Source of the DNA: a virus
Reading direction: 5' to 3' (one strand)
IMG/VR virus record: IMGVR_UViG_3300010343_000632
Location: 1 to 37,670 of that record
DNA length: 37,670 bases
In this document: positions 19,012 to 36,244 of the stretch, piece after piece
Layout of the letters: every line of letters begins with the position of its first letter
How positions within the stretch are numbered: the stretch's first letter is position 1
Position numbers and translations under genes: made by a program
The notes under the pieces: generated by a model
What the model was told of the DNA's origin: nothing
Seen by the model: the letters and a program-made list of their open reading frames with translations, nothing else
Database searches by the model: none

Positions 19012-19650
19012 ATGAACACGCAGAACGATGTCGTTGCGTTGGTGAATATCTCCACGCAAAAGTGGCCGCCACGCCACCGCACCTATTTTGGCTCGCTGGA
19101 GATCCGCACCCCGGAACCCGGCGAGGCTTTCGCGGTCACGCCCATCCATGCCTGCAAAGGCATCATGGATCTGGGCGACAAGCGCACCATGGAATTCCCC
19201 ATCACCGCGCGGGAGATCGCCGATGACCTGGTCCGTGAGATCAATGGCGATTCCGGCGAGGGAAGCTTTCACGGCGTGTTTGTGGCGGCAGGAGCGGTGC
19301 CCACGGAAGCGGAGTTGGCGGAGGCGCACAGGAAGCTGGATGCGTTTCACCGGCGATTGGTGGAGGCGGCCGACCTCGAGTGGGAGCGTTCGCACAATCC
19401 CATGTTCATTACGGACTTGGAAAGGCGCGCGGCACGCGAATTGAAGCTGGATAAGCCGTGGTTGTATGACCCCAAGCCCCAGGCGGAATGCCCCGCATGC
19501 GGCGAAAGGATCAAGGCGGGCGTGGCTGTGTGCCGCTCCTGCCGGGCAATCCTGAACCGGGAGAAGGCCGCGGAGTTTGGATTGGCGCCGACAGAAGCGG
19601 AGCGGCCCGTGGACTTCATGAAGCTGAGAGAAAAGGGAAGCGCGAAATAA
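19012..19650 (+). CDS. Phage protein with C-terminal zinc ribbon
   Basis: ATG 19012 follows TTGAGGAAAAC. The 212-residue product has a beta-rich N-terminus (DVVALVNISTQKW, RTYFGSLEIRTPEPGEAF), an acidic helical middle (AELAEAHRKLDAFHRRLVEA) and a zinc ribbon near residues 160-178 (CPACG and CRSCR, 14 residues between). It may be a virion-associated or tail-assembly factor. Its stop codon lies inside the T tract of a minus-strand terminator (19645-19675). Confidence 0.7.
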   Translation: MNTQNDVVALVNISTQKWPPRHRTYFGSLEIRTPEPGEAFAVTPIHACKGIMDLGDKRTMEFPITAREIADDLVREINGDSGEGSFHGVFVAAGAVPTEAELAEAHRKLDAFHRRLVEAADLEWERSHNPMFITDLERRAARELKLDKPWLYDPKPQAECPACGERIKAGVAVCRSCRAILNREKAAEFGLAPTEAERPVDFMKLREKGSAK

Positions 19651-19675
19651 AAAGGGCGGCGAAGATTCGCCGCCC
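19645..19675 (-). terminator. Rho-independent terminator for the minus-strand tRNA/antisense RNA unit
   Basis: On the minus strand GGGCGGCGAA (19675-19666) pairs perfectly with TTCGCCGCCC (19663-19654) across a 2-nt apical gap (TC) and is followed at once by TTTTTATTT. On the plus strand the hairpin is followed by CCAAAAA, so it would not terminate there. No minus-strand protein gene lies nearby; the only clients are the tRNA and small RNA. Confidence 0.85.
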
Positions 19676-19712
19676 CCAAAAATGCAACGTGCACTGGGCA
19701 CGCCTGAGAAGC
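19649..19712 (-). ncRNA. Predicted small RNA antisense to the tRNA anticodon arm
   Basis: From a start near 19712, set by the promoter at 19719-19746, to the terminator gives about 64 nt. The first 20 nt (GCTTCTCAGGCGTGCCCAGT) are complementary to tRNA nucleotides 23-42, that is the 3' half of the D stem plus the anticodon arm up to C42, with 19 Watson-Crick pairs and one G-U. The middle is a short spacer with GTGCAC, the end a strong terminator hairpin. This is the layout of a bacterial regulatory RNA: seed at the 5' end, terminator at the 3' end. No open frame with a ribosome site is present. Confidence 0.6.
19693..19712 (+). repeat. Inverted copy of tRNA nucleotides 23-42
   Basis: ACTGGGCACGCCTGAGAAGC on the plus strand equals the tRNA sequence at 19835-19816 (minus strand) except C for T at tRNA position 29. 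A second short piece, GCGTTGAGGG at 19752-19761, equals tRNA positions 41-50. The two pieces are separated by 39 nt that hold the small-RNA promoter. Confidence 0.85.
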
Positions 19713-19718
19713 AGATTT

Positions 19719-19746
19719 AGCATAGCAGACGTAATACTGTTGTCAA
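19719..19746 (-). promoter_or_regulatory. Sigma-70 promoter for the antisense small RNA
   Basis: On the minus strand a perfect TTGACA (19746-19741), a 16-nt spacer and TATGCT (19724-19719) form a good promoter. Transcription would begin near 19712, exactly where complementarity to the tRNA begins, and run into the terminator at 19645-19675. Confidence 0.65.
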
Positions 19747-19767
19747 TGGGCGCGTTGAGGGACTGTG

Positions 19768-19857
19768 CGGAGAGTGGAAGACTCGAACTTCTGGGGCTGC
19801 AGAGCAACCCTCAACGCTTCTCAGGCGTACCCAGTACCCCCACTGGGAGCACTCTCC
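19768..19857 (-). tRNA. 8/4-type class II tRNA, serine-like body, anticodon GAG
   Basis: The 90-nt sequence folds with an 8-bp acceptor stem (GGAGAGTG with CACTCTCC) directly joined to a 4-bp T stem (GAAG/CTTC) and a canonical T loop TTCGAGT. This is 12 bp in total, as 8/4 rather than 7/5. The D arm is CCCAGT/ACTGGG with a 6-nt G-rich loop. The anticodon arm is ACGC/GCGT with loop CTGAGAA, giving anticodon GAG (reads CUC/CUU, Leu). The variable arm has 7 bp (GGGTTGC/GCAGCCC, one G-U) with loop TCT. The discriminator is G, and CCA is not encoded (CAC follows). GGAGAG ends, G73 and a long variable arm are serine identity features. Known precedent: 8/4 and 9/3 tRNAs reported from Acidobacteria and some phages, proposed as missense or nonsense suppressors. 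A 7/5 fold needs an A-C mismatch in the T stem. Confidence 0.85.
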
Positions 19858-19878
19858 GAGGCACGCCCACGCAGCACA

Positions 19879-19908
19879 TATATACCATACATATAAGTAT
19901 AGAGACAA
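19879..19908 (-). promoter_or_regulatory. Promoter of the tRNA gene
   Basis: On the minus strand TTGTCT (19908-19903), an 18-nt spacer and an extended -10 TGG-TATATA (19884-19879) give a start near 19872. That leaves a leader of about 15 nt before the tRNA 5' end at 19857. The region also overlaps the 5' leader of the plus-strand gene at 19912. Confidence 0.55.
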
Positions 19909-19911
19909 GAA

Positions 19912-22860
19912 ATGTCCACACTGGGATCATTGGATGCACCGATTGAGGTTTTCGGCGGGCTTGTCACCGACATGTCTCCCGCCGATCTGCCGCATGGAGT
20001 TTCACCGGATTGCCAGGACGTTGTCTTCAGCAACGGCGGCGTGATGACACGACCCGGGCTCCAGGCGCTCTTTGGGCCGTTGGCGGGCAACCCGACGGTG
20101 AATTACGTGAAAACGTACACGACACCGAACGAAACGCTGCGAACGATGGCGCTTGATGGCGCGGGGAATTTGTATAAGGAGATCACAGAGGGAACGCTGA
20201 CACAGATCGCCAGCGGCCTGGCGGCGAACTCGTACGCCAATTCGGCGACGTTGTTCGCCAGGGAATATCTGGCGATCAGCGACGGGATGACCGGGAATGA
20301 CTTGCCGCGGCAATACGACGACACAAATTTCGATCGCGTGAGTCAAGGCGGACCAGGCGCTGGGCCAGCGGTGGTCGACGAAAACGTAATCGTGGCCATC
20401 GCGGCCAGCCCCAATGGTGCGACACAGCCCGCTGCGGTGACGATCGTAGCCAGCCCCAATGGGGCGACGCAAAACGGCTACCTGGTAACCATTACGACGA
20501 ACGCCTCGCACGGATTGTCCGCCGGCCAAAGCGTCACGGTGGCGGGCGTCGGCGTGGCGGGTTACAACGGCACGTTTGCAGTGGTGTCTGTGCCGAGCTC
20601 GACGCAGTTTACTTACATTGCGGGCGCTGCGGGGCTGGCAAGCTCCGGCGGCGGCACGGCGGCTTCCGCAACGGTCACGATTCAAACGAGCGCGGCGCAT
20701 GGCTTGTCCGTGGGGCAGCTTGTGACGATTGCCGGCATGGGTGTGAGCGGGTACAACGGCACATTTGCGATCGCAACAGTCCCCGACTCGATGCACTTCA
20801 CGTATGGCGCCACCACCGGCGGCCTCGCAGCTTCGGGCGGCGGCACGGCGGCCGCGGCCGGGAATGTTGCCATGGGCGTGCACCAGGTGTGCGTCATGTT
20901 CCAGACGCGCCAGGGCTATTTGACGAAGCCGGGGCCGGCGACGAACTGGACGGCGAGCGGCGGCAAGCGTGCTGTGGTCACGAATATCCCGACGGGGCCG
21001 AGCAATATCATCGCGCGCATTTTGTGCTTCACGGGGGCTGGTGGCGCCAGCTTTTACTATGTGGGCGGCGGCGGAACGCTGTTCACCGGAAACATGGTCA
21101 TCAGCGACAACACCACGACGTCGCTAGTAGTGGATTTCTCGGATCCGATTCTTCTCGCGGGGACAAACGTGGACGACATGTTCCGGCTCATAGAGCTTGG
21201 CGATTGCGCCGGGGTGATCGGCTATTCGGAACGCCTGTTCTGGTGGGGTGAACGGAACAAGATGGACAATTGGGTGAACCTGGGATTCGACGGCGGGTTC
21301 ATGGGACCGTCTCTGCCGCACTACCCGCTGGGCTGGACGCCCGACGGCACATTTGCGCCCGGCGGCACCGATGAAGAGAATTTTGTGGTGTGGGGCGCGG
21401 CGTATTCGATCGTGGGGAACGGCTCCACGGCCACACGCGGTTTGATGACCCAGGGCGCGGTTCAGGATGCACTGGGGGCGCCACTCATCCAGGCGAATAC
21501 GAGTTACACCGTGCGGGCGCGCTGTGCGTGCAACGCTTCGCTGACACATGGAACGCTGCACGTGCATCTCTACAGCGCCAGCGGGGGAATCAACACCACG
21601 GGCCTGCAACTGACCGCGGCACAACTCACAACGGGCTACATAGAATACAGCGCGCAACTGACAGCGCCGCTCACCGTGATTCCGGGCGATCTGGTGCTGC
21701 GCGTGTATGCGGACGGCACGCCCACCCAGAACGGCCAGTTCTACATCGATTGCATCGAGATTTTCCCGACCTTGCAGCCATTGAACGCTTCGCAAGTGCG
21801 GGCGAGCCGCGTGGAGGATCCGGAAAGCTACGACGGGCTCGACGGGATGCTGAGCGTGGCGGAGAACAACGGGCAGGCCATCAGGTCCGCATTCGAGTTG
21901 CGAGAGCGGCTGTATTTCGTGAAGGAACATTCGATGTATGTGACGCAGGACGACGGCACGAATGAGCCGGCGCTGTGGACGATATCGGAAGTTTCGCAGC
22001 GCGTGGGCACGCCCTCCGTGCGCGGCGTTGGCTTCGGCGAGGATTGGGCGGTGATCGCGCACCGCACCGGGCTGTACCTGTTTTCCGGCGGGGAGCCCGT
22101 GAAGATCTCCCAGGAAATTCAGCCCACCTGGAACAAGATCAATTGGCAGTATGCACAAACGCTGTGGGTGACGGTGGATACGAAGGAGCGGCGCATTTAC
22201 GTGGGCGCGCCATTCGGAAGCGCCACTACGCCGAACCAGGTGCTGATGCTGGACTATCACGACCTTGATACGGTCAGCGCCCTGTCCTCGAGTCCGCCGG
22301 TAAACATCACCTACACGGGCAGAAAAGCGGCGACAGACAACGCGCGCAAATGGTCGCCATGGCTGATTGCGGCGAATTGCTGCGCCTTGATCGAGCGGCC
22401 CGACGGAACGGCGGTGGCGGCGTTCGGCAGCGGCAATCCCGGCGTAGGCGGGGGCGGATCGACGGGGAAGATTTATCAACTGAGCGACACGCAGTATTCC
22501 GATGATGGCGCGGCGATCGCGAGCTATTACACCACGCACTATTTCCCAGAGCGCATGGTGGAAAGCTCATTGGGGTTGGGCGCGCACCGGAAACTGTTCA
22601 GTTATCTGAGCATGTACGTGGAAGGCGCGGGGAACTTGGCGCTGACGAGCTACGTGGATTCCTCAGGCGCGGCGCAGGCGCAGCAGCCATTGCCGCTCAG
22701 TTCGCCCGGGCTGGAAGATTTGGAGTTGCCCATCAATGTGCTGGGGGAACGCGTGGCGTTTCAGGTCAGCACGAACCAAGCCGGCGCGTGGTTTAAACTG
22801 CAGCGTTTTACGCCCAGTCTGCGGACGGATCCGTGGGCCCCGGTGCGCGGCGTGAATTAG
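19912..22860 (+). CDS. Tail tube/stabilisation protein of short-tailed phages
   Basis: The 982-residue product starts with GGLVTDMSPADLPHGVSPD and VVFSNGGVMTRPGLQALFG, the opening used by P22 gp10-type stabilisation and other tail-nozzle proteins (genome-end remarks on first strands: all beta). The C-terminal half contains WAVIAHRTGLYLFSGGEPVK and a beta-propeller-like run. Residues about 188-318 hold two tandem copies of a HGLS(A/V)GQ...GYNGTF...SGGGTA module. Upstream of these is a 15-residue duplication around ASPNGATQ. The ribosome site is weak (ACAAGAA). It likely closes the portal channel below the adaptor. Confidence 0.7.
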   Translation: MSTLGSLDAPIEVFGGLVTDMSPADLPHGVSPDCQDVVFSNGGVMTRPGLQALFGPLAGNPTVNYVKTYTTPNETLRTMALDGAGNLYKEITEGTLTQIASGLAANSYANSATLFAREYLAISDGMTGNDLPRQYDDTNFDRVSQGGPGAGPAVVDENVIVAIAASPNGATQPAAVTIVASPNGATQNGYLVTITTNASHGLSAGQSVTVAGVGVAGYNGTFAVVSVPSSTQFTYIAGAAGLASSGGGTAASATVTIQTSAAHGLSVGQLVTIAGMGVSGYNGTFAIATVPDSMHFTYGATTGGLAASGGGTAAAAGNVAMGVHQVCVMFQTRQGYLTKPGPATNWTASGGKRAVVTNIPTGPSNIIARILCFTGAGGASFYYVGGGGTLFTGNMVISDNTTTSLVVDFSDPILLAGTNVDDMFRLIELGDCAGVIGYSERLFWWGERNKMDNWVNLGFDGGFMGPSLPHYPLGWTPDGTFAPGGTDEENFVVWGAAYSIVGNGSTATRGLMTQGAVQDALGAPLIQANTSYTVRARCACNASLTHGTLHVHLYSASGGINTTGLQLTAAQLTTGYIEYSAQLTAPLTVIPGDLVLRVYADGTPTQNGQFYIDCIEIFPTLQPLNASQVRASRVEDPESYDGLDGMLSVAENNGQAIRSAFELRERLYFVKEHSMYVTQDDGTNEPALWTISEVSQRVGTPSVRGVGFGEDWAVIAHRTGLYLFSGGEPVKISQEIQPTWNKINWQYAQTLWVTVDTKERRIYVGAPFGSATTPNQVLMLDYHDLDTVSALSSSPPVNITYTGRKAATDNARKWSPWLIAANCCALIERPDGTAVAAFGSGNPGVGGGGSTGKIYQLSDTQYSDDGAAIASYYTTHYFPERMVESSLGLGAHRKLFSYLSMYVEGAGNLALTSYVDSSGAAQAQQPLPLSSPGLEDLELPINVLGERVAFQVSTNQAGAWFKLQRFTPSLRTDPWAPVRGVN
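20404..20472 (+). repeat. 45-bp tandem duplication in the tail protein gene
   Basis: GCCAGCCCCAATGGTGCGAC (20404) recurs 45 bp later as GCCAGCCCCAATGGGGCGAC (20449). Each copy encodes ASPNGATQ in the same frame, giving a 15-residue unit directly before the two HGLS/GYNGTF modules. Confidence 0.75.
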
Positions 22861-29439: not shown

Positions 29440-29880
29440 ATGGGACTCGCCAACCTCAACCTGCAAAGTTTAATCGGCGGGAGCGTCGCGGACGCTTTCG
29501 CCAAGGTTGTCGGCGTGTTCAAGGTTGACCCCACCGCGAAACTCAACGCGGAAACCGAACTCCAGAAGATCCAACTCGAGCTCCAGGGCAAGCTGCAAGA
29601 CGCCATATCGAATGAGATCACGGCCTCGGCAGAGATCATCAAATCCGAAGCGCAAAGCCAGAGCTGGCTGCCCCGCAACGTGCGGCCCCTCCTACTGCTC
29701 CTCTGGGGTTTGCTCATCACGTTCAACTACCTACTACCACTGCTCGCGCATTTCGTCTCCGCGTTCCAAAGCATGCAACCCCTCGTGCTTCCCGACTGGC
29801 TCTATAAACTGACGGCCATCGGCTTCACAGGCTACGTCACCGCGCGCACCTGGGAAAAAGTGACGAACTCGGACCAATAG
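29440..29880 (+). CDS. GTA-type holin with membrane helices
   Basis: The 146-residue product has an amphipathic N-terminal half (ADAFAKVVGVFKVDPTAKL; ETELQKIQLELQGKLQDAI), then SWLPRNVRPLLLLLWGLLIT. A further hydrophobic segment (YLLPLLAHFVSAFQSM) and a C-terminal one (LYKLTAIGFTGYVTARTWEK) follow. The order SxxRPxxLLxW, a second helix and GYVxxRTxEK is the signature of the 3TM holin family first noted in gene transfer agents. It would permeabilise the inner membrane for the transglycosylase at 25103, although it is 4 kb away. Confidence 0.8.
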   Translation: MGLANLNLQSLIGGSVADAFAKVVGVFKVDPTAKLNAETELQKIQLELQGKLQDAISNEITASAEIIKSEAQSQSWLPRNVRPLLLLLWGLLITFNYLLPLLAHFVSAFQSMQPLVLPDWLYKLTAIGFTGYVTARTWEKVTNSDQ

Positions 29881-34999: not shown

Positions 35000-36244
35000 T
35001 CAGGCAGCACCCTCGAAAAGCGCAGGCTGCCACGCTGATTTCTCCGGCATCGCGCCGGCGAACCCTATCCGCTTCTGTCCACTTGCCACAACGGGCGACG
35101 GCGTCAACTCCCACGGCGGACCATGCACCGCTAGGTACTCATCTATTTGCCGGTGGAAGGCGAAGGAAAACTGCCTCGGTCCACCATGACACATTTCCGT
35201 TTCCGACAACGCCGCACGTAAACCGATCCGTCGATAACCTTGATCACGCAGCCGCATGCAAACTTCTGGGTCAGGTTGACTGTCGTCTCCCGGCTCTCGC
35301 TGGAACTCTTCTGGCTGTGCGTCATAAAAACTCCCAAAGCACTGGATTCGCCGCACACCCTTGAAGGCGCGCATGAACTCATCAACCAGCAAATGGTCAC
35401 CGGCAAACTCAGCGCATTTCGTGACGTACTTACACACCTCGCGCAGCGCCTTCACATTCAGGTGGTTGTACTTCCTCTTCCCGCGCCGGGTTACCGTGTA
35501 GGCACGCTGCAAGTGCAGATAACGCGCATCGCCGGTAATGCGTATCCATGCGGCTTTCAGCAGCGTCAGCCACCAACGCGGAAGCCTACGCGGCCCCTCA
35601 AACAACACGTGGATGTGCGGGTGCCAGGACTTCAATTCCAGATTGCGCGTACACTCTATAGAACGCACACCGCCGTAAATCCGGAGCGACTTGCCAGTTT
35701 CGTCCTCGACTTTCTGAAACACCCACGACTTCCACAGCTCCGCGAACTGCTCCGAGATTTCCGATATATCCCGCCGCGAGATGTCTTCCACGTTGGGCAC
35801 CGTGAGCGTCAGAAACCAGTACGATCTTCCCGGCCGGTTGAGCATCGTGGAGAGCTTCTTAATCAGCGGGCGAGAGCGACGGTTCGCACACTCGGGGCAA
35901 AACATCGAATCACAGAAGCACGGAACTGCCTTCCGATCCCCATTCGGATGCACCCACACGTCAAACCACTCCCCGCACGTGGCCAGGGCTTTTGCCTGCT
36001 TTTCCCTTCCACACCTGTTAAGGGAATTCACTACCTGCCTGGTGAGCTTGTCCCGCTTCTCCCGGCGGTAAAAGTCTGCCCCTTCCGCCGATGACCCCAT
36101 GAAAGCAACAGCTTTGCTAGATGTTCCTATCTTATGAACATACCGCGCTTCGCGCGCCCCCCTTCCGCCTTCGCCCCCCGCCGCAAAACCCGCGCGGGTG
36201 GCGGGCGGGAGTTTACCGGCTAAAGGCTGCAAGGGACTGACCAT
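35000..36244 (-). CDS. rep: Rolling-circle replication initiator (HUH Rep)
   Basis: The 414-residue product carries the HUH endonuclease motifs in order: YWFLTLTVPN (142-151, motif I), WHPHIHVLFEG (207-217, motif II; H210 and H212), and CKYVTK (271-276, motif III; catalytic Y273, K276). A cysteine cluster before motif I (C109, C111, C116, C119) would bind zinc. This is the layout of Rep_1-type plasmid initiators, which nick the double-strand origin and stay bound to the 5' end. It is rare for tailed phages with terminase and portal. The start (36242-36244) follows GGAGGTG and the upstream stop; ATG 36098-36100 (M49) is an alternative, since the first 48 residues are low complexity. Confidence 0.88.
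   Translation of the reverse strand: MVSPLQPLAGKLPPATRAGFAAGGEGGRGAREARYVHKIGTSSKAVAFMGSSAEGADFYRREKRDKLTRQVVNSLNRCGREKQAKALATCGEWFDVWVHPNGDRKAVPCFCDSMFCPECANRRSRPLIKKLSTMLNRPGRSYWFLTLTVPNVEDISRRDISEISEQFAELWKSWVFQKVEDETGKSLRIYGGVRSIECTRNLELKSWHPHIHVLFEGPRRLPRWWLTLLKAAWIRITGDARYLHLQRAYTVTRRGKRKYNHLNVKALREVCKYVTKCAEFAGDHLLVDEFMRAFKGVRRIQCFGSFYDAQPEEFQREPGDDSQPDPEVCMRLRDQGYRRIGLRAALSETEMCHGGPRQFSFAFHRQIDEYLAVHGPPWELTPSPVVASGQKRIGFAGAMPEKSAWQPALFEGAA
36121..36141. promoter_or_regulatory. Candidate double-strand origin hairpin within rep
   Basis: ATGTTC (36121-36126) and GAACAT (36136-36141) form a 6-bp stem around the 9-nt loop CTATCTTAT. A stem with a T-rich loop resembling TATCTTGATA-type nick sites is the look of a rolling-circle origin. 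It lies in the 5' part of rep, next to very GC-rich palindromic sequence (36142-36200). Weak evidence. Confidence 0.25.

Follow-up and report, generated by a model that had tools for sequence, protein, structure and literature searches.

A phage-borne 8/4 allo-tRNA and a predicted antisense RNA that follows its anticodon: a candidate two-RNA module of phages and Acidobacteriota

The window that we analysed (the whole stretch of phage DNA, 37,670 nucleotides) carries on its minus strand a gene for an 8/4 allo-tRNA with anticodon GAG and, downstream of it on the same strand, a predicted gene for a short RNA (sRNA) that starts with a segment antisense to the anticodon region of that tRNA. Pairs of this kind recur with other anticodons in related phages, in prophages and in acidobacterial genomes, and from comparison of their sequences we could recognize both predicted RNA units as well as a co-evolving complementarity between them. 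We give somewhat more than an even chance to the explanation that the whole module consists of a serine-inserting tRNA that would be silenced by an antisense RNA, following a toxin-antitoxin logic. The features are, in the order of transcription:

19879-19884, minus strand: TATATA, a -10-like box for the tRNA, its end 21 nt upstream of the gene; weak, inferred, no consensus -35
19860-19867, minus strand: 5' leader segment GGCGTGCC, antisense to GGTACGCC of the tRNA (7/8); direct repeat D1
19768-19857, minus strand: 8/4 allo-tRNA; anticodon GAG at 19822-19820, loop CTGAGAA at 19824-19818, discriminator G19768
19752-19761, minus strand: 3' trailer CCCTCAACGC, antisense to the 3' strand of the anticodon stem and the start of the variable arm (19808-19817), 10/10
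19719-19746, minus strand: sigma-70-type promoter of the sRNA, TTGACA-16-TATGCT, with TG before the -10
19650-19713, minus strand: predicted antisense sRNA, about 60 nt long, with a 5' end deduced from the position of the -10
19693-19712, minus strand: antisense segment GCTTCTCAGGCGTGCCCAGT, complementary to tRNA positions 19816-19835 (19/20, the exception being a G-U pair)
19652-19677, minus strand: strong intrinsic terminator of the sRNA

The tRNA is a genuine 8/4 allo-tRNA. Its acceptor stem (GGAGAGTG/CACTCTCC) counts 8 bp, or 9 bp if C19858 and G19768 (C-1:G73) pair, and is abutted with zero gap by a 4-bp T stem (GAAG/CTTC), giving a 12-bp branch composed as 8 + 4; the variable arm has 7 bp (GGGTTGC/GCAGCCC), the D stem 5-6 bp, like that of tRNA-Sec, and CCA is not encoded at the 3' end. 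The first-pass annotation had listed the gapless branch, the variable arm, the CTGAGAA loop and the discriminator G, all of which are present in the sequence, and had read them as an 8/4 serine-type, suppressor-like tRNA, a reading that the structure backs. The helices are supported by covariation: in a family alignment of 12 sequences 98.5% of the cells are paired, and the acceptor, anticodon and T stems all show compensatory changes. ARAGORN labels the gene tRNA-Leu(gag) (19767-19857, minus strand). The covariance-model comparison that had been proposed as a check did not return an ordinary 7/5 tRNA-Leu: the Rfam family of ordinary tRNAs gave no match that reached the threshold, the best model was tRNA-Sec (RF01852; 37.7 bits over 19768-19858 vs a gathering score of 47), and at gathering score there were zero Rfam matches in the searched region. 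The phage tRNA has neither the 7/5 branch nor the A73 of an ordinary tRNA-Leu, and apart from its sub-threshold score it also departs from tRNA-Sec in its anticodon, which is UCA in most RF01852 members.

The phage tRNA combines a long variable arm, G1-C72 and G73, which are serine-type features. Among 80 allo-tRNAs the discriminator is G73 in 61 and U in 16, A37 is kept in 78 and the T loop is of the GTTC type; about a quarter have C33 in place of U33, by which decoding may be weaker. Among close relatives the anticodon varies while the body stays nearly identical (GAG, GAC, GCG, CTC, GTC or CAG), and no serine anticodon was found among the compared allo-tRNA/sRNA pairs; this constancy of the body suggests that the choice of amino acid should be independent of the anticodon. 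Given the long variable arm and the established identity rules of tRNAs, seryl-tRNA synthetase (SerRS) would be the best candidate for the charging enzyme. The assignment also rests on a review of allo-tRNAs (PMC7609411), according to which 8/4 and 9/3 allo-tRNAs of Silvibacterium bohemicum, in E. coli, inserted serine at the leucine codons CUC and UUA. The first-pass annotation had named no precedent for a GAG member in a tailed phage; because of the S. bohemicum case a CUC-reading allo-tRNA is not unprecedented as such, and it is the copy in a tailed phage that may be the first.

Two inverted repeats, absent from the first-pass annotation, tie the tRNA to the next 170 nt of the same strand: one of 20 nt (19693-19712/19816-19835, 95%) and one of 10 nt (19752-19761/19808-19817, 100%). 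The longer one places the antisense segment about 55 nt downstream of the tRNA, and the segment covers the tRNA from the 3' strand of the D arm through the whole anticodon loop. The only consensus promoter that we found in the region lies between the trailer and this segment, and the terminator behind it overlaps the end of the converging gene 19012-19650; the segment is thus predicted to belong to a free-standing RNA gene, with a sigma-70 promoter, a 20-nt antisense stretch and an intrinsic terminator. Weak matches to Rfam sRNA families at 19640-19720 reflect the terminator. As a chance control, 149 random phage stretches of 260 nt were compared with the tRNA and reached 15/20 at most, as against 19 at the real site. 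On the strength of these comparisons and of those described below, we are nearly certain that the putative antisense partner of the allo-tRNA is real.

The neighbouring virion gene (19912-22860), used as query, recovered 17 related contigs, and pattern searches gave more. The gap between the two virion genes (19651-19911) resembles a cargo site: in the related phages L002-L016 its counterpart is highly variable and holds a pair, an sRNA alone or unrelated sequence. In two relatives (L001, L011) it contains a tRNA with anticodon GAC, and the sRNA reads GTC where that of the phage under study has CTC; other pairs combine GCG with CGC (L024) and CTC with GAG (L009), and three with anticodon GAG (L022, L023, L026) have altered stems and sRNAs that match these. 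No close relative of the phage was present in INPHARED, and the exact (strict) pattern of its anticodon arm had no match in viral contigs. A genome scan recovered the pair from two acidobacterial MAGs (L036, Terriglobia; L037, Acidiferrales), and genome G086 has three pairs, each with a different anticodon; a D-arm pattern matched 25 of 396 Acidobacteriota genomes, of which only G086 had allo-tRNAs. Since ARAGORN misses most relatives, we built covariance models, which gave 76 matches in 51 of the 397 genomes of the order of G086, each with one to five, as well as matches in 5 of the 95 genomes of the order of L037; of the hits that the first model scored under about 50 bits, most resemble ordinary tRNA-Ser, and the automatic anticodon calls, kept in the tables, are wrong in at least L069, L070, L123 and L140. 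The chromosomal pairs sit at conserved positions between housekeeping genes (hemA/hemC, adh/xdhC, a sigma-54 regulator).

Within a contig of 624 kb, genome G801 contains a relative of the phage in which the pair is flanked by the same two genes; the identity is 92% for the major head protein, 80% for the tail protein and 68% for TerL. Relatives of the phage thus exist as prophages and, considering also the pairs in acidobacterial genomes, its host group is very likely the Acidobacteriota. Related prophage-like regions in L037 and in G816:C3 (27000-46000) have the pair at gene junctions other than that of the phage, from which it follows that the module moves within this phage group. Several further observations concern the surroundings of the pairs and the rest of the phage genome. 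Two tandem allo-tRNA/sRNA pairs with anticodons ATC and GTC occur in L143 (1519-1919; G718); there, the ATC tRNA would be an exact match for the sRNA that follows the GTC tRNA. In L184 (1588-5063; G522:C169) a GCG pair stands beside two genes, one PD-(D/E)XK endonuclease-like and one with a weak TIR domain, which may represent a defence island, and a more distant phage relative has a 75-nt tRNA-His(gtg) according to ARAGORN (L017, 13168-13242, minus strand). The phage itself encodes a 414-aa protein (35003-36244, minus strand) that matches the Rep_1 family of rolling-circle replication proteins (PF01446, E 8e-21) and also shows a weak zinc-binding domain of the IS91 type, which is unusual beside a large terminase, and a holin of the GTA_holin_3TM family (29440-29880, plus strand; PF11351, E 3e-16); with the holin and the G801 prophage, a gene-transfer-agent-like relative could be considered.

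The complementarity between tRNA and sRNA follows the sequence changes of the pairs closely. In an alignment of 16 loci from phages, prophages and MAGs, 96.2% of the cells of the duplex are paired, and the pairing falls to 30-34% when the duplex is slid by one column. Both sides have changed in 8 of the 20 base pairs, with 29 doubly compensated cells, as against a mean of 8.8 in shuffled data (none of 500 reached the observed value). Much of this covariation is carried by the anticodon (second position A-U, C-G and U-A; third position G-C and C-G), and RNAalifold, unprompted, preferred the tRNA:sRNA duplex over the anticodon stem of the tRNA itself. Extended to 88 allo-tRNAs of phages and acidobacterial genomes, the search scored a downstream antisense for 83, the mean score being 15.2 downstream vs 8.7 upstream and 8.1 in sense. 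The sRNA holds the exact complement of the anticodon in 62 of 73 distinct pairs, and in 68 when wobble is allowed; upon reassignment of the sRNAs among the pairs (20,000 permutations) the mean was 11.8 exact matches and the maximum 25. The permutation tests ignore shared descent; the changes are nonetheless many and are spread over phages and chromosomes. Four Acidiferrales loci that were found later all match their anticodon, including the new combination CAG/CTG. The predicted duplex energies are graded likewise: -39.7 kcal/mol for cognates, -29.6 for swaps between loci with the same anticodon and -22.8 for other swaps.

The predicted promoters of the two RNAs are asymmetric, strong for the sRNA and without sigma-70 consensus for the tRNA. 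Across the allo-tRNA loci the sRNA promoter scores 9.3 of 12 vs 7.2 in shuffled sequence, a median of 6 nt separates the end of its -10 from the antisense, by which the sRNA should start with the anti-anticodon segment, and a terminator is present in 83 of 83 loci. Upstream of the tRNAs no sigma-70 consensus was found (7.59 vs 7.55 shuffled). A promoter of its own had been ascribed to the phage tRNA: an AT-rich -10-like element is indeed there, and in the relatives its end is mostly 19-24 nt upstream of the tRNA, but the sole consensus promoter of the locus belongs to the sRNA. In 14 loci the tRNA is preceded by a CRP-like site (TGTGA-N6-TCACA-like; 2.25 expected), and 12 of these are centred 54-59 nt upstream of the tRNA, about -41.5 from the inferred start; a centre near -41.5 is the geometry of class II CRP promoters. 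The antisense leader recurs in 56 of the 83 loci (3 of 83 in a control stretch) and the antisense trailer in 67, and the read-through transcript of the phage locus is predicted to fold into a single long hairpin structure of about -99 kcal/mol and not into a cloverleaf.

The two partners are lost unequally. From the five loci that were scored as lacking an antisense, L070 does have one, L140 has a diverged one and L111 is interrupted by an assembly gap (N); L121 seems truly without sRNA and is the sole such case among the loci that could be judged. The remaining one (L041, 1501-1585; G149) is an allo-tRNA-like gene of another class, with anticodon TAT and no antisense partner; as UAU is named among the commonest 8/4 anticodons (PMC7609411), allo-tRNAs may fall into two kinds. 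Conversely, at least ten phage contigs have the sRNA without an allo-tRNA, although these contigs are fragments and the tRNA could lie elsewhere. Many of the orphans in the tail gap have a degraded or lost -35 and may be relics, unlike a second sRNA-only class at another phage position (L006, L020, L032, L034; anti-anticodon GAG, for a CTC tRNA), which keeps the TTGACA -35 and the terminator. The orphan L004 (GCC) pairs with the chromosomal allo-tRNA L130 at a predicted -50.4 kcal/mol, which would in principle allow phage sRNAs to neutralise the copies of hosts. That loss of the sRNA is rare and loss of the tRNA common is the pattern of a toxin and its antitoxin.

From these data we infer serine charging, inhibition, toxicity and induction, which would act together as follows. 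The host SerRS, ignoring the anticodon, would charge the allo-tRNA with serine; the free phage tRNA would then put serine at CUC/CUU leucine codons, the phage's own CUC codons included, and the family as a whole at Leu, Val, Arg, Asp, Gly, Glu or Ile codons. The antisense RNA of about 60 nt would be made constitutively from the strong promoter just downstream of the tRNA, and its 5' end would pair with the anticodon loop, anticodon stem and D arm, the resulting duplex of about 20 bp blocking decoding and destroying the cloverleaf, whereas the antisense leader and trailer would mute the tRNA precursor. Lacking a sigma-70 promoter, the tRNA is probably expressed under certain conditions only, with a CRP/FNR-type activator turning it on in some loci, and mistranslation would arise only if synthesis of the tRNA outruns the sRNA or the sRNA disappears; with each change of anticodon the pairing would have to be renewed. 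The likely use would be addiction, superinfection exclusion or stress arrest. The first-pass annotation had missed the antisense RNA, the conservation of which argues for a tRNA that is silenced as a rule and not freely used; a co-evolving partner under its own strong promoter likewise points to a default state that is off. That the sRNA inhibits the allo-tRNA is very probable, and a toxin-antitoxin-like use of the pair has slightly better than even prospects.

The main rival is a regulated, adaptive mistranslation, in which a signal would release the allo-tRNA, serine would be spread over the proteome and the sRNA would set the level without the tRNA being a toxin; phages would carry the pair to alter lysogens or virions. 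The positions that are conserved across genomes between housekeeping genes also fit such a stable physiological role and count against a toxin, the CRP-like sites upstream of some tRNAs point the same way, and mistranslation can be tolerated. Adaptive mistranslation predicts, however, neither the orphan sRNAs of phages nor a set of anticodons that reaches common codons for at least seven amino acids, and we consider it unlikely, but worth keeping in mind. Alternatively, the tRNA could be a decoy or sensor that titrates the sRNA, the latter being the effector on another RNA. The predicted promoters make the sRNA the strongly expressed partner, and the abstract of Mukai 2017 is said to suggest acidobacterial allo-tRNAs as possible regulatory RNAs. 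The tRNAs have kept the full cloverleaf, compensation in acceptor and T stem, A37 and the GTTC-type T loop of a working tRNA, and the complementarity follows the anticodon instead of a constant target, which makes this role improbable.

Two further explanations concern one of the partners each. That antisense, leader and trailer merely arose by an inverted duplication and have no function is suggested by the pieces of the tRNA reverse complement that all three contain, but in almost every locus a promoter and a terminator stand in register with the antisense, and the pairs are kept via G-U and compensatory changes and not as identical blocks, in phages, prophages and chromosomes alike; we deem it very improbable, and an att-site or duplication artefact was dropped as an explanation. 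An ordinary tRNA-Leu that supplements codons for phage translation would agree with the ARAGORN label and with the CUC frequency in the phage genes (17.8 per 1000 codons). It is hardly credible in view of the 8/4 branch, G73 instead of A73 and the best match to tRNA-Sec, of the Val, Arg, Glu, Asp and other anticodons on the same body in relatives, and of the antisense partner and a transcription that runs against the late genes.

The silenced serine-inserting tRNA that we favour bears on the question why a cell or a phage keeps a tRNA that misreads common codons, and with two short RNAs the natural role of allo-tRNAs becomes testable. Should it be a toxin-antitoxin system, it would be the first known to us with a functional tRNA as toxin, and it would offer a programmable on/off switch for codon reassignment. 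In relation to known systems, the tRNA is of a known kind: Mukai et al. reportedly named allo-tRNAs, the 8/4 acceptor branch included, in 2017. With the described allo-tRNAs (PMC7609411) it shares the 12-bp 8/4 branch, the long variable arm, the serine-type features, the varied non-serine anticodons and the occurrence in Acidobacteria, and it differs in the phage/prophage copy, the antisense sRNA and the antisense leader and trailer. With respect to the sources searched, three things are apparently new: the sRNA partner, the complementarity of leader and trailer to the tRNA, and the orphan sRNAs of phages; no antisense partner of an allo-tRNA appeared in that literature, the scope of which did not extend to the full text of Mukai 2017, which may mention antisense. 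The resemblance to tRNA-Sec (RF01852) extends to the long acceptor, long D stem and long variable arm, but tRNA-Sec has a 13-bp branch vs 12 bp here (C-1:G73 uncounted), and here the anticodon is a sense one and the score is below gathering. Type I antitoxins and antisense control RNAs are, like the sRNA, short, equipped with a strong promoter and a terminator, and complementary to a neighbouring partner; such RNAs target an mRNA or a replication primer from overlapping genes, whereas here the target is a tRNA and the RNAs are encoded in tandem on the same strand. T-box leaders are likewise terminator-bearing RNAs that read a tRNA anticodon by base pairing, but through a codon-like triplet and not through about 20 bp, and no NCCA-binding element was seen here; a T-box leader was rejected, as there was neither a T-box match in Rfam nor a minus-strand gene behind the terminator.

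The closest comparison is that with type VIII toxin-antitoxin systems such as CreTA (PMC12737573), in which, as here, two RNAs are encoded side by side and the proposed toxin acts on translation. Both components of the present module are RNAs (as predicted units) that are encoded together; that one is toxic would follow from its predicted missense decoding, and that the other neutralises is suggested by the co-evolving complementarity. We tentatively propose, at odds that we put somewhat below even, a new RNA-only toxin-antitoxin class of both phages and acidobacterial hosts, with a codon-to-serine tRNA as toxin and an anticodon-tracking antisense RNA as antitoxin, in which antitoxin-only phages could neutralise host or prophage copies. 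In CreTA the toxin RNA depletes a tRNA, whereas the candidate toxin here is itself a complete recoding tRNA, and the predicted antitoxin, unlike that of CreTA, would pair directly with the toxin and need no Cas proteins.
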